From Candidatus Helicobacter avistercoris (GTDB lineage Bacteria > Campylobacterota > Campylobacteria > Campylobacterales > Helicobacteraceae), in the NCBI GenBank assembly GCA_019115525.1, contig DXDJ01000038.1, positions 1 through 33,416 on the forward strand: a DNA stretch of 33,416 bases, written 5' to 3'. Each line of letters begins with the position of its first letter. The stretch's first letter is position 1. Positions 25,320 through 29,957 of the stretch are shown one piece after another. The notes beneath the pieces are model-generated. The model did no database searches and was not told the origin of the DNA. It saw only the letters and a program-made list of their open reading frames with translations. The translations under genes were made by a program, and so were the position numbers.

Positions 25320-26450
25320 ATGACTCGGATATTTTTTATATTGCTTTTTTGTATCAGTGCAGGGATTTTTTTCACACACAAACCTCCTACCGCTCCTAGC
25401 TTTCTCTTGCCACCCAAAGAGATCCCTACTTCTACTCCAAAATATTTTTACAATTCTCTTCCTCTCATCCCTCAAGCACCCTCTATGCACTCTGCCACTC
25501 TCACTGCACTCAAAGATGGTTCTCTCCTTGCGATGTGGTTTGCAGGAAGTGGTGAGGGCAAACCTGATGTAGAGATTTATGGAAGTTTTTATAATCCCTC
25601 TACCAACACTTGGAGTGAGCCAAAAAGCTATCTCAATCGCTTCAAACTCAAAGAAGATTCCAAACAATTCATCAAAATGCTTGGCAATCCTGTGCTTTTT
25701 CGCTCCCCTAGTGGAGAGCTCCACTTCTTTGTCGTGGGTGTGAGCTTTGGTGGATGGGCAACAAGCAAAATCTATCACTATATCTCCAAAGATGAGGGGA
25801 AGAGTTTTACCTACAAACAACGCCTAGACTTAGGAATGCTTCTCAACCTCAGCCACCTTGTGCGAACCCAGCCTGTGGCACTGCAAGATGGAGGATTCTA
25901 TCTTCCTATCTATCACGAACTTGCAGATAAATACCCTCTGATTGTGCGATTTGATGCGGAGGGCAATGTGCTTGAGCGTATCAAAACCACTTCACTCTCT
26001 GGTCAGCTTCAGCCTGCTATCATCCCTACAAGTCCAAGCGAATGTCTAGCAGTGTTTAGAAACTACTATGATAAACCTATGAATATGCAATACTGCTTTG
26101 ATGGAGGGAAAAAGTGGGGAAGCCCAATCCCAAGTAACATCATCAATGAGGGCAATTCTATCGCTCTCTTTGGGATTGGCAAGGAGATTTTTCTAGTGCA
26201 TAACACCAGAGAGAAAAACCCTAGCGAATCAAGAGGCACTCTAGTGCTTAGCCAGCTCATAGGTAATGCATGGAAGCAACTCGCCATCCTAGATGTCGCT
26301 CAAGGCACAAGAGAGAGGGGCAAAAGTGTAGAAGTCTCCTATCCAACAGCACTTAGCAATGGAGAATGGATAGACATCATCTACACTTATAATCGCTCCT
26401 CAATCTCTCACATCCGATTTAATACCCGATGGCTTAAGGAAAAACAATGA
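25320..26450 (+). CDS. Exported sialidase-like (BNR/Asp-box) protein, uncharacterised
   Basis: A 376-residue protein with an N-terminal signal or anchor (MTRIFFILLFCISAGIFF) and a beta-propeller-like body. Two Asp boxes are visible: SKDEGKSF at about 156-163 and FDGGKKW at about 260-266. The block HSATLTALKDGSLLAMWFAGSGEG matches the family called predicted neuraminidase (COG4692/BNR_2). I do not find the FRIP motif of classical sialidases, so catalysis on sialic acid is unproven; arginines in LVRTQPV and VFRNYY could be ligands. It shares an ATGA overlap with a membrane protein gene, so the two are probably co-expressed and may act together at the envelope. Confidence 0.8.
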   Translation: MTRIFFILLFCISAGIFFTHKPPTAPSFLLPPKEIPTSTPKYFYNSLPLIPQAPSMHSATLTALKDGSLLAMWFAGSGEGKPDVEIYGSFYNPSTNTWSEPKSYLNRFKLKEDSKQFIKMLGNPVLFRSPSGELHFFVVGVSFGGWATSKIYHYISKDEGKSFTYKQRLDLGMLLNLSHLVRTQPVALQDGGFYLPIYHELADKYPLIVRFDAEGNVLERIKTTSLSGQLQPAIIPTSPSECLAVFRNYYDKPMNMQYCFDGGKKWGSPIPSNIINEGNSIALFGIGKEIFLVHNTREKNPSESRGTLVLSQLIGNAWKQLAILDVAQGTRERGKSVEVSYPTALSNGEWIDIIYTYNRSSISHIRFNTRWLKEKQ

Positions 26451-27025
26451 CTTACAATACTTTGATTTTCTCAATTTCAATTTTTGCACTCTGCTCTTGG
26501 CTTTTGCAACGCACTAGGTTTTGCTTTGCCCTAAGTCTGCTAGTAGTTTTGCTCTGCAATCTCCCTTTTATCCTCTCTTTGAGCGTTACTCAGTGGCTTG
26601 ATAGCCTCTGTGGTAACCCCAGCCTTTTCCTTGCTCTTCTCTCGCTTGGCTCGCTCCTCTCTCTTCCAAAAGCCCCACTTGCACTCTACTTTTTTCCCAG
26701 CTCTACCCCCCTACGCCTCAACATAAAGTCAAAAATATTTATTTTTGTCTTTGGTTTCATTCTCTTTTGGGGGAATATCAATTACCTATGGGGGTTTGAT
26801 CCATTTAATGCTGGATTTTACACTCAGATCCTCATAGCTTTGGCAGTCGTGATTTTGGGATATTTTATCCAGCCTTATCTTGGGGTTTTGTTTCTACTCT
26901 CTTGTGTTGGCTACCTTATCAAGGGAGGCAATATCTTCTCCTTTATGTGTGATGCACTTGTATGGCTCTATGCTCTGCTCTCTTTGCTTTTAGCTCCATT
27001 TGTGAGAAAAGATCGTGCGAAATAG
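26447..27025 (+). CDS. Small integral membrane protein paired with the sialidase-like protein
   Basis: A 192-residue, very hydrophobic protein with about six predicted membrane helices separated by short polar turns, and a basic C-terminus (FVRKDRAK). I recognise no family. The start ATG overlaps the previous stop as ATGA and has AAGGA six bases before it. Its 3' end overlaps mnmH by 11 bases. The tight coupling suggests a partner for the exported sialidase-like protein, such as an anchor or transporter; this is inference only. Confidence 0.75.
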   Translation: MTYNTLIFSISIFALCSWLLQRTRFCFALSLLVVLLCNLPFILSLSVTQWLDSLCGNPSLFLALLSLGSLLSLPKAPLALYFFPSSTPLRLNIKSKIFIFVFGFILFWGNINYLWGFDPFNAGFYTQILIALAVVILGYFIQPYLGVLFLLSCVGYLIKGGNIFSFMCDALVWLYALLSLLLAPFVRKDRAK

Positions 27026-27986
27026 ATTTATTATTGATGTGAGAAGCCCTAGAGAATATGCCTACTCTCACATCCCTCAAGCCCTCTCTTTCCCAGTGCT
27101 CAATGATCAAGAATATGAAGAGGTAGGAACCCTCTATCGTGCCAATACCTTTGAGGCAAAGCGAGTGGGAAGTATGTATATCTGTCAAAATATTGCAAAG
27201 CACCTCAAAAATGAAGAAATCTTTCACCCACGCAACAAACTCATTCTCTATTGTGCTAGAGGAGGACAGAGAAGTAAGAGCTTTTGGAGTATTCTCTCCT
27301 CTATTGGGTTTGATTGTGAAAGAATTGAGGGAGGATACAAATCCTATCGCAACGAGGTTTTAAACTACTTTTCCACTCCTCCTACTCAAAGCTTTATCAC
27401 ACTCTATGGCATGACAGGATGTGGGAAAAGTGAGCTTATAGAGCATTGCTCTTCTTGGAGTATTGATATTGAGGGGTTGAGCAAGCATTATGGCTCTAGC
27501 TTTGGGGATGAGGCAAATTCATTTGAAGGACAGCCGACAAATTCGATGTTTGAAAACCAGCTTTATGAAGAGCTTATGAGCAAACAAGGAGTGCTACTTG
27601 TAGAGGGGGAGAGCAAAAAACTTGGCAAGATCATCATCCCTACACCATTTTTTGAGAGTTATCACAATGGAGTGAGTGTGCAGGTTAGCTCAAGTTTGCA
27701 AAATCGCATCAAACGCATTGTAACAATGTATTCATCCATCAAAGAAGAGGATTTTCTCTCCTCACTCAACAAAATCAAGCCTTATATCAAAAAAGAATAT
27801 TTTGAGGAGATTTTGACCGAGTGGAAAAAAAGAGATTGTGAAAAAATCGCAGAAATCTTACTAGAGAAATATTATGACAGGGTCTATCGCCAAAAGCCTT
27901 GCAAATATCAAATTAGCTCTGATGATCTCACAAAAGCCATAGAGGAGATAGAAGAGATTAGGAGCGAGATTCTCCGCCAAATCTAA
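27015..27986 (+). CDS. mnmH: tRNA 2-selenouridine synthase
   Basis: A 323-residue protein with an N-terminal rhodanese domain, catalytic cysteine C80 in [12 protein letters not shown], and a P-loop domain with GMTGCGKS at 132-139. This pair marks MnmH (SelU/YbbB), which replaces sulfur with selenium at the wobble 2-thiouridine of some tRNAs, using geranylated tRNA as intermediate and selenophosphate as donor. It needs SelD, not in this window. It starts at GTG 27015 inside the membrane protein gene, with only a weak ribosome site. It overlaps the facing fabH by 29 bases. Confidence 0.92.
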
Positions 27987-28962
27987 GAAGTGCAGATCCC
28001 CAAGTCAGTCCTCCACCAAAAGCATCAAGCAAGAGCAAATCTCCTTTTGCAAGCTTGCCACTTTCATAAACTTCATTGATTGCCATAGGGATAGAGGCGG
28101 CTGAAGTATTGCCAAACTTATCTACCGTAACCACCACTTGATCACTGCTAAAATCCAGCATCTCTCCCACCGCAGAGATGATTCGTAGATTTGCTTGATG
28201 AGGGATGAAATATTTGACTTCTTTGGAGGCAATCGCGTTTTTTGTCAAAATATGCTCTACATCATTTGCCAAAGTCTTCACGGCAAGCTTAAAAGTCTCA
28301 TTGCCTTTCATTTTGATAAACTGAAGATGGTTTGCCAAAGCTTCCACACTTGCAGGGGTGCGACTTCCACATGCAGGAGTGATAAGAAAATCACTATACT
28401 TTCCATTTGCACTAATATGCACATCTACAATCGCTTCATTGGGATCCTCAGTCGCACTCACTACTGAAGCTCCAGCCCCATCGCCAAAAAGCACACAAGT
28501 GCTTCTATCGCTAAAATCAAGCAAAGAACTGATTTTCTCACTTCCAATGATGAGGATGTTTTTGTACTCTCCGCTTTGGATAAATGCTTTTGCCATAGAG
28601 AGCAAATAAATATAACCCGTGCAAGCTGTTGTGATATCAAACGCAGGGACATTTTCGATTCCCAAATTATAAGAAGCGATACACGCAGTGGAAGGCATCC
28701 CGATATAGTCAGGACTAAGGGTTGCGACAATCACCATATCAATATCGCTTGGTTTAAGTCCAGCCCTCTTAATCGCTAGTTCTCCAGCTTTTGTAGCCAA
28801 ATCACTTGTTGCCTCAGAATCTTCTGCAAAATAACGCGTCTTAATCCCTGTGCGTTTTGTAATCCACTCATCGCTTGTATCTACGATTTTTTCAAGATCG
28901 ACATTACTCACACAGCGACTGGGCACATAAGAAGCGATGGATTTTAGTGAGGCATACAACAT
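27958..28962 (-). CDS. fabH: 3-oxoacyl-ACP synthase III
   Basis: A 334-residue thiolase-fold enzyme that starts fatty acid synthesis by condensing acetyl-CoA with malonyl-ACP. The catalytic triad is visible: C114 in [10 protein letters not shown], the histidine of [10 protein letters not shown] and the asparagine of KFGNTSAAS. The end has the [13 protein letters not shown] motif. It is last in the ndk operon, five bases after plsX, with GGGAG before its ATG. Its 3' end overlaps mnmH by 29 bases. Confidence 0.97.
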
Positions 28963-28967
28963 TTGAC

Positions 28968-29957
28968 TTACTCCCTAATGGTTTCAAAAGAAGTTTTTAT
29001 TTTATCGCAAACATCCGCATTGAGTGCATTGATTGCTTGATAAATTGCACATTCAATCGCTCTTGCATTGCTACTTCCATGGCTAATGATCACAGTCTTA
29101 TTCACTCCAAGCAATGGGGCTCCGCCGTATTCGGAGTGATCTACTCTTGCCTTAAGAGAGCCAAAAGCCTTTCTCATCATCCCTGCTCCAAGCATACTTA
29201 GCCAAGATTTTTTGATCTCCTGCTTGAGTATTTTGCTCACCGCACTTGCTACACCCTCACTTGCTTTGAGCACAAGATTCCCAACAAAACCATCACACAC
29301 AATCACATCGATACTGCCATCAAAGATATTTTTTCCTTCAACATTACCGATGAAGAAATCATATTTTTTTAGCAAAGAAAATGTTTCTTTGGTTAGCTCA
29401 TTGCCCTTGATATCCTCTTCGCCATTGGAGAGCAATCCTACTCTAGGATTTTGCACCCCCATCACGCCTTTGGCATATTCATACCCCATCAAGGCAAAAT
29501 CTACCAAATACTCAGGCTTGCAATCTGTGTTTGCTCCAGCATCAAGGATAAGGCTATATTTCCCCTCGATAGAGGTTGGCATCATTGTACAAATTGCTGG
29601 ACGAGAAACACCTTTGATCCTTCCAAGTCGCAATGTTGCAAGGCTCATCGTTGCTCCACTATGCCCTGCTGAGACAATCGCATCTGCCTCACCTTCTTTT
29701 ACAAGTTCCATTCCTACATAGATAGAGCTTTCCTTGCGTTTAGCAGAGCTTGATGCATGCTCTTCCATACGAATATAATCACTGCAGTGAATGACTTGGA
29801 TTTTTGATTTGAACTCTTGTGGGATAAATTTCTCAATCTCAGAGCTATCTCCTACAATGATAGGGGAAAAATCTCTGTGTCTAAGTGCAGAAATCAGACC
29901 TTCTATAATGGGTTGCACCCCATAGTCTCCCCCCATTGCATCCAAAACAATTTTCAT
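28968..29957 (-). CDS. plsX: Phosphate acyltransferase PlsX
   Basis: A 329-residue peripheral enzyme that converts acyl-ACP to acyl-phosphate for PlsY in phospholipid synthesis. The opening is [53 protein letters not shown] and [16 protein letters not shown] are complete family blocks. It sits between rpmF (six-base gap) and fabH, the common bacterial order. Confidence 0.97.

Follow-up and report, generated by a model that had tools for sequence, protein, structure and literature searches.

A gene pair of Candidatus Helicobacter avistercoris encoding a sialidase-like propeller and a small membrane protein as a probable two-component Kdo hydrolase of LPS maturation

What is the role of a sialidase-like protein whose gene is joined to that of a small membrane protein? 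The question is raised by a locus of Candidatus Helicobacter avistercoris within a 33,416-nucleotide stretch of contig DXDJ01000038.1 (hereafter the window). The first gene, kdhA (25320..26450, + strand, ATG start), encodes a 376-aa protein with a match to Pfam PF13088, and is the counterpart of HP0580, a KdoH2-type subunit; the second, kdhB (26447..27025, + strand, ATG start), encodes a 192-aa protein assigned by profiles as a KdoH1-type subunit and counterpart of HP0579. An ATGA stop-start overlap at 26447..26450 on the + strand, evident from the sequence itself, joins the two. A third gene, mnmH (27015..27986, + strand, GTG start), encodes a tRNA 2-selenouridine synthase, as evidenced by above-cut-off matches to NCBIfam NF008750 (328.8 bits against a cut-off of 241) and TIGR03167; it overlaps kdhB by 11 bases and is a neighbour outside the enzyme. 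The original prediction had drawn this arrangement, with two ORFs that overlap by ATGA and a further overlap with mnmH, all of which were confirmed, and had read from the tight coupling a two-part envelope system of unknown role.

The coupling itself proved to be widespread. A KdhA profile (alignment A2, 41 rows) and a KdhB profile (A3, 49 rows) each matched the same 82 of 397 Campylobacterota genomes; some of the species searched also contributed rows to the two alignments, and since relatedness breaks the independence of the 397 genomes, the count is also given by genus, with both genes in 12 of 68. The two genes lie no more than 1 kb apart on one strand in 78 of the 82, and both are still present in the four exceptions (G009, G010, G021 and G031). 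Within a set of 59 genomes that includes our own, the kdhA gene was found in 27, and 23 of these 27 propeller loci carry a small multi-TM ORF downstream; the other four (L016, L022, L026 and L027) come from G010, G031, G009 and G021, respectively. Two of these genomes, which belong to one genus, have kdhA far from kdhB (L162:3939-4538 and L171:2633-3916 in G009; L163:3976-4569 in G021), and there kdhB adjoins what reads as a bamA-like ORF. Comparison with H. cholecystus and H. brantae gave dN of 0.13 and 0.13 against dS of 1.55 and 0.95 for kdhA, and dN of 0.31 and 0.34 against dS of 2.25 and 2.63, the latter near saturation, for kdhB. Because dN lies far below dS and the pair is so widely conserved, the arrangement is more than chance.

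Adjacency was then counted around named KdhA copies, using the best 80 of 110 relatives, from which records very near our own genome may have been left out. The nearest named copies among the matches listed are those of H. brantae (81% identity) and H. cholecystus (80%), followed by H. pametensis (57%). A3 placed KdhB at most 300 bp from where the KdhA match ends in 71 of the 80 loci, while a count by ORF start gave 66; by clade, as assigned from record titles, the 71 are 40 of 45 Helicobacter-type, 2 of 3 Campylobacter, 26 of 29 Burkholderiales-type, 2 of 2 Opitutaceae and 1 of 1 other loci. Three more (L049, L076 and L092) have KdhB within 1 kb, and five of the 80 stretches (L053, L091, L093, L107 and L111) had no KdhB detectable by A3; L091 belongs to G031 and L093 to G010, two genomes with KdhB elsewhere. 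A betaproteobacterial contig (L117:6272-10788) has a 1255-aa ORF between the two genes, which places KdhB 4 kb away. Since A3 contains rows from 48 of the 80 tested loci, the clade-only alignments A4 (six rows, window genus) and A6 (15 rows, Burkholderiales-type) provide a more independent test: A4 gave adjacent matches in 38 of the 80, among them 4 of the 29 Burkholderiales-type loci and one of the two from Opitutaceae, and A6 in 43, including 14 of 45 of the Helicobacter type. Further A3, A4 and A6 domains among the 4549 stop-to-stop segments of these 80 loci were all downstream of KdhA on the same strand, and represent parts of the KdhB gene or stretches directly beside it (L065, L068, L069 and L070) together with the KdhB genes of L049, L076, L092 and L117. 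A fusion of kdhA and kdhB was considered and rejected, as the KdhB matches in the long ORFs of L080, L081, L097 and L103 are in a frame other than that of KdhA. The conserved adjacency that had been proposed as a check on the coupling is thus seen in Campylobacterota genomes that carry both genes, and extends to Burkholderiales and Opitutaceae.

The identity of the pair became apparent from gene order. Four loci (L122, L123, L159 and L160) share the order tonB-pyrC-KdhA (BNR_2)-KdhB-sulfatase-folD; family models were run on L122 (tonB, TIGR01352; pyrC, TIGR00856 at 515.6 bits; folD at 551.8 bits; the sulfatase by Pfam) and the other loci were assigned by reading. By reading also, the named H. 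cetorum locus L050 follows this order, except that an mnmH-like ORF precedes folD, and L161 agrees with L050 as far as its stretch goes. We take HP0578 to be a sulfatase-like gene and HP0577 to be folD. In H. pylori, HP0582 is tonB, HP0581 is pyrC, and HP0580 and HP0579 are the Kdo hydrolase subunits, both called "subunit 2" in the published table (PMC5368276); the assignment of the tonB-pyrC loci to H. pylori rests on this order and on the named H. cetorum locus. KdhA of the window is homologous to their propeller subunits, with identities over 370–371 aa of 41% (L050), 39% (L160 and L161) and 38% (L159).

Establishing the same for KdhB required profiles. The protein is 57–62% identical to its counterparts in the two nearest species and 17–39% identical to the other rows of A3, and because it diverges so fast, a single-sequence search of the 59 genomes found it in 9 at E ≤0.001 and in 10 at E ≤10. 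Window KdhB had no significant pairwise BLASTP match to KdhB of H. cetorum or of the H. pylori type (best E 0.02), and hence its homology to them rests on profiles. The window-genus profile A4 picked out the partner in the named H. cetorum locus L050 at E 1.4e-9 among 1699 ORFs, and hhalign matched the window-genus profile to a six-row H. pylori/cetorum-type profile with a probability of 95.4% (E 1.8e-8) and to the Burkholderiales type with 77.3% (E 2e-5); between the H. pylori and Burkholderiales types the value was only 54.3% (E 1.3e-4). The window-genus profile recognizes KdhB in H. cetorum as well as in Burkholderiales and Opitutaceae. Together with co-occurrence, these matches mark KdhB as the adjacent HP0579 homolog, and the clade-only profiles and profile comparisons support homology of the KdhB partners across the groups counted above.

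The counterparts in question have a published function. In H. pylori, polymyxin resistance depends on this enzyme: HP0579/HP0580 is described as the KDO hydrolase in PMC5371381, and deletion of HP0579 in strain G27 or of both genes in strain X47 lowered the polymyxin B MIC 37-fold and 1147-fold, respectively; PMC12342981 states that KdoH1 (HP0579) and KdoH2 (HP0580) jointly cleave the terminal Kdo. PMC3245313 places this step in an ordered periplasmic pathway of H. pylori in which Kdo removal precedes 4'-dephosphorylation by LpxF, removal of the 4'-phosphate is inefficient without KdoH1/2, and KdoH1/2 modulate O-antigen ligation. In Francisella, kdoH2 (FTN0494) and kdoH1 (FTN0495) are assigned to the inner membrane (PMC4688374), and a two-component KdhAB is held responsible for single-Kdo LPS (PMC10653695). 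A comparison of Helicobacter genomes (PMC6247508) notes that almost every gastric or enterohepatic genome it considered, apart from those of H. pylori, H. acinonychis and H. cetorum, encodes at least one of the lipid A modification genes, which include Kdo hydrolase. We are therefore confident, with little room for doubt, that the window pair is a two-component Kdo hydrolase of LPS maturation (KdhAB/KdoH1-KdoH2). Homology, pairing, the sialidase fold and the presence of a WaaA gene can be read from the sequence, while the reaction, the site of cleavage and the place in the pathway would be carried over from the papers on relatives; by this analogy, we infer that this Helicobacter performs the same Kdo-removal reaction. 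Of the system envisaged in the original prediction, the coupling and the envelope location stand, whereas the role is not new: the pair thought to be the best candidate for undescribed biology has been described in H. pylori and Francisella. A known separate function of one gene had been expected to count against a coupled system; a function is indeed known, but it is joint to both.

The remainder of the genome is compatible with this assignment. One gene for WaaA, the enzyme that makes the substrate, is present (E 7.2e-44; NCBIfam NF004389, 448 bits against a cut-off of 363), as are an LpxR gene, two proteins below NCBIfam cut-offs (one EptA-like with an EptA_B_N domain, the other CptA-like), and one PAP2 phosphatase of the LpxE/LpxF type. 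Since the genome thus has much of what H. pylori uses for these modifications, mono-Kdo lipid A is expected. The pathway downstream of Kdo removal may differ from that of H. pylori, because the sole NCBIfam match of the lone PAP2 protein is a low-scoring one to LpxE (43 bits against a cut-off of 177) and lpxE is called specific to the gastric clade in PMC6247508.

Could the same family act on something else in this lineage? A shift in specificity, toward a Kdo-like or other ulosonic acid elsewhere in the LPS core or in another envelope glycan, would be in keeping with the fast divergence of KdhB, the changed gene neighborhood, and the divergent second pairs seen in two relatives. These second pairs occur in G010 and G294 (genus g6) at L164:2545-4539 and L170:4121-6254, where, with neighbors assigned by reading, pyrC is followed by a one-helix protein of 424 or 430 aa, a KdhB paralog and a hypA-like gene. 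The 424-aa protein matched the KdhA profile at 8.5e-13 in a search of four proteins; the 430-aa protein was not reported by that profile, and its kinship follows from its position and its resemblance to the 424-aa protein. Both have other residues at the positions equivalent to H57, R182, E200, Q231, R247, R305, E338 and Y341, and the second pair is probably a non-catalytic paralogous one, judging from these sequences. At three further loci (L166:3868-4479, L167:3736-4341 and L168:3616-4197), a KdhB paralog has no recognized KdhA-like gene adjoining it and is followed by the same hypA-like ORF. Against shifted specificity in the window pair itself stands its putative active site (H57, D83, R182, E200, Q231, R247, R305, E338 and Y341), which is identical in window KdhA, in H. 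cetorum (L050, a row of A2) and, by reading, in the H. pylori-type copies L012 and L013 (rows of A1). The low dN against dS and the retention of WaaA also argue for an unchanged substrate, and we consider such a shift improbable.

Less probable still, and in our opinion hardly tenable, is that KdhA is a true exo-sialidase, or a pseudaminidase or legionaminidase, that acts on host or flagellar nine-carbon ulosonic acids and uses the membrane protein as an anchor. What lends this reading its appeal is the fold. Pfam assigns KdhA to BNR_2 (PF13088, E 3.7e-67), and its AlphaFold model (mean pLDDT 94.0), with a propeller from about residue 40 to 368, adopts the sialidase fold, as evidenced by matches to solved sialidases with a Foldseek E of 4.1e-14 and a VIA Z of 34.6 (rmsd 2.5, 314 residues aligned); a pseudaminidase (2w38) is among the Foldseek matches. 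Part of the catalytic layout may agree as well: the nucleophilic Tyr and two of the carboxylate-binding Arg residues of sialidases would correspond to Y341, R247 and R305, which fall opposite a Tyr and two Arg of 7lbu, albeit in a weak profile match (E 0.24). That match was the best of seven listed when the KdhA profile was run against solved-structure sequences up to E 10; the profile had no match up to E 0.1, and phmmer had none up to E 1. The FRIP motif of classical sialidases is absent throughout KdhA, the position expected for it, as assigned by reading, being occupied by His57, a residue shared by all 41 rows of A2. Repeated Asp-boxes are likewise missing, with a single PF02012 match at residues 154–164 (12.3 bits, below the cut-off of 27), so that of the Asp-box propeller without FRIP originally proposed, the propeller and the lack of FRIP hold but the Asp-boxes have nearly gone. 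On these two grounds a classical sialidase was rejected; moreover, the membrane partner accompanies KdhA in 82 of 82 genomes, and the homologous pair that has been characterized is a Kdo hydrolase (PMC5371381 and PMC12342981).

Conservation of KdhA extends beyond the motif position. All 41 rows of A2 share E79, R182, E200, Q231, R247, R305, E338, Y341 and R359 as well as His57, and 37 share D83. The KdhA copy in L171 (genome G009, of a divergent genus), which is not a row of A2, has replacements at the equivalents of E338 and R359, and therefore the proposed residue set is not fixed throughout the family. Long low-complexity insertions rich in Asn, Ser, Asp and Lys occur inside the propeller in L017, L022, L024 and L025, where the ORFs measure 468 to 641 aa. 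In G011, G023, G032, G132 and G386 the part of KdhA that matched was flagged for in-frame stops, and in the first three of these the longest ORF lacks the N-terminal anchor; such copies may be degraded genes or may reflect start-site effects.

That kdhA, kdhB and mnmH form a functional three-gene operon tying envelope processing to tRNA selenation is a proposal to which we give almost no credence and which was rejected, mnmH being a lineage-specific neighbor: the genes do overlap in the window, an mnmH-like ORF adjoins KdhB in 6 of 6 genus members examined and in L018 (by reading, except for the window's own) and lies one gene further away in L050 and L161, but a sulfatase-type membrane protein follows KdhB instead in 11 of 20 other loci (L007–L027 without L018; by reading), and L122, L159 and L160 have no mnmH between the sulfatase-type gene and folD. 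Convergent with mnmH, at 27958-29957 on the − strand of the window, are ORFs that read as fabH and plsX. The protein that often follows KdhB in Helicobacter is a sulfatase-superfamily, phosphoglycerol-transferase-like membrane protein (L122:4902-6938 and L050:6640-8688), and two sulfatase-type genes on other contigs of the window genome (L128 and L129) may be counterparts of this third gene of the H. pylori locus.

Returning to the two-component Kdo hydrolase, the hydrophobic helices of the pair are compatible with a periplasmic enzyme. KdhA has a hydrophobic helix at residues 2–19, which is likely an uncleaved membrane anchor. KdhB shows six or seven hydrophobic helices by Kyte-Doolittle analysis at two thresholds and seven helices of at least 12 residues in its AlphaFold model (pLDDT 91.8), where the original prediction gave six. 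From these helices, an inner-membrane topology with a catalytic part facing the periplasm may be supposed. Residues P40, S46, P58, S59, G103, D169 and W173 of KdhB are each kept in 35–47 of the 49 rows of A3, and the conserved loops would face the periplasm, judging from the positive charges in the remaining loops. KdhB had no match above cut-off in Pfam, and its model gave at best a Foldseek E of 2.3 against solved folds and a VIA Z of 3.7 among 44 chains; for a predicted model, the absence of a solved-fold match does not prove a new fold.

A sequence of steps can be proposed on this basis. Kdo and sialic acid are both 2-keto-3-deoxy acids, and because of this resemblance a sialidase fold suits a Kdo hydrolase. 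WaaA adds two Kdo residues to lipid IVA in the cytoplasm, and the KdhA/KdhB pair would remove one of them, the outer, from Kdo2-lipid A LPS. The Kdo site would be formed by Y341, as a sialidase-type nucleophile, with R247/R305 and H57, and KdhB may complete the active site or serve as a dock for the substrate's lipid A end. We entertain, as a speculative and on balance doubtful extension, that KdhB does more than anchor its partner and has a membrane fold not described before, with which it completes the site or keeps the lipid A end in place, and that the degenerate second pair of the related genus is a repurposed, non-catalytic LPS-binding or regulatory complex. A KdhB that completes the site or holds the substrate would explain why KdhA was never found without KdhB (82 of 82 genomes).

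Taken together, the evidence gives good support for regarding the pair as an ordinary representative of a two-component enzyme that is already known; the pairing is real and the system is not new. Its recognition gives names to two proteins for which Pfam and NCBIfam offer a "BNR repeat-like domain" in one case and no family in the other (no NCBIfam model matched KdhA or KdhB up to E 1) and predicts mono-Kdo LPS for this Helicobacter. A rule for annotating the two subunits in Campylobacterota, Burkholderiales and Opitutaceae could be built on their exact co-occurrence and on the profiles, and wider leads are offered by the KdhB fold without a solved match and by the degenerate second pair in two relatives.

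Among known systems, the closest is KdoH1/KdoH2 of H. pylori, which has the same two-gene order, a BNR_2 propeller, a homologous small membrane partner and the same putative active-site residues as the window pair. Unlike the H. pylori locus, the window has mnmH rather than the sulfatase-like gene after the pair and has no pyrC directly upstream, and its KdhB is very divergent in sequence from KdoH1. The sialidases of Micromonospora viridifaciens (1eur/1w8o) and Propionibacterium acnes (7lbu), which we take to be of the GH33 type, share the propeller fold with KdhA (Z 34.6 over 314 residues) and differ in that KdhA has His57 for the FRIP arginine, almost no Asp-boxes and a fixed membrane partner. 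KdhAB of Francisella (kdoH2 FTN0494/kdoH1 FTN0495), likened here through its published description, likewise consists of two inner-membrane proteins that jointly leave mono-Kdo LPS.
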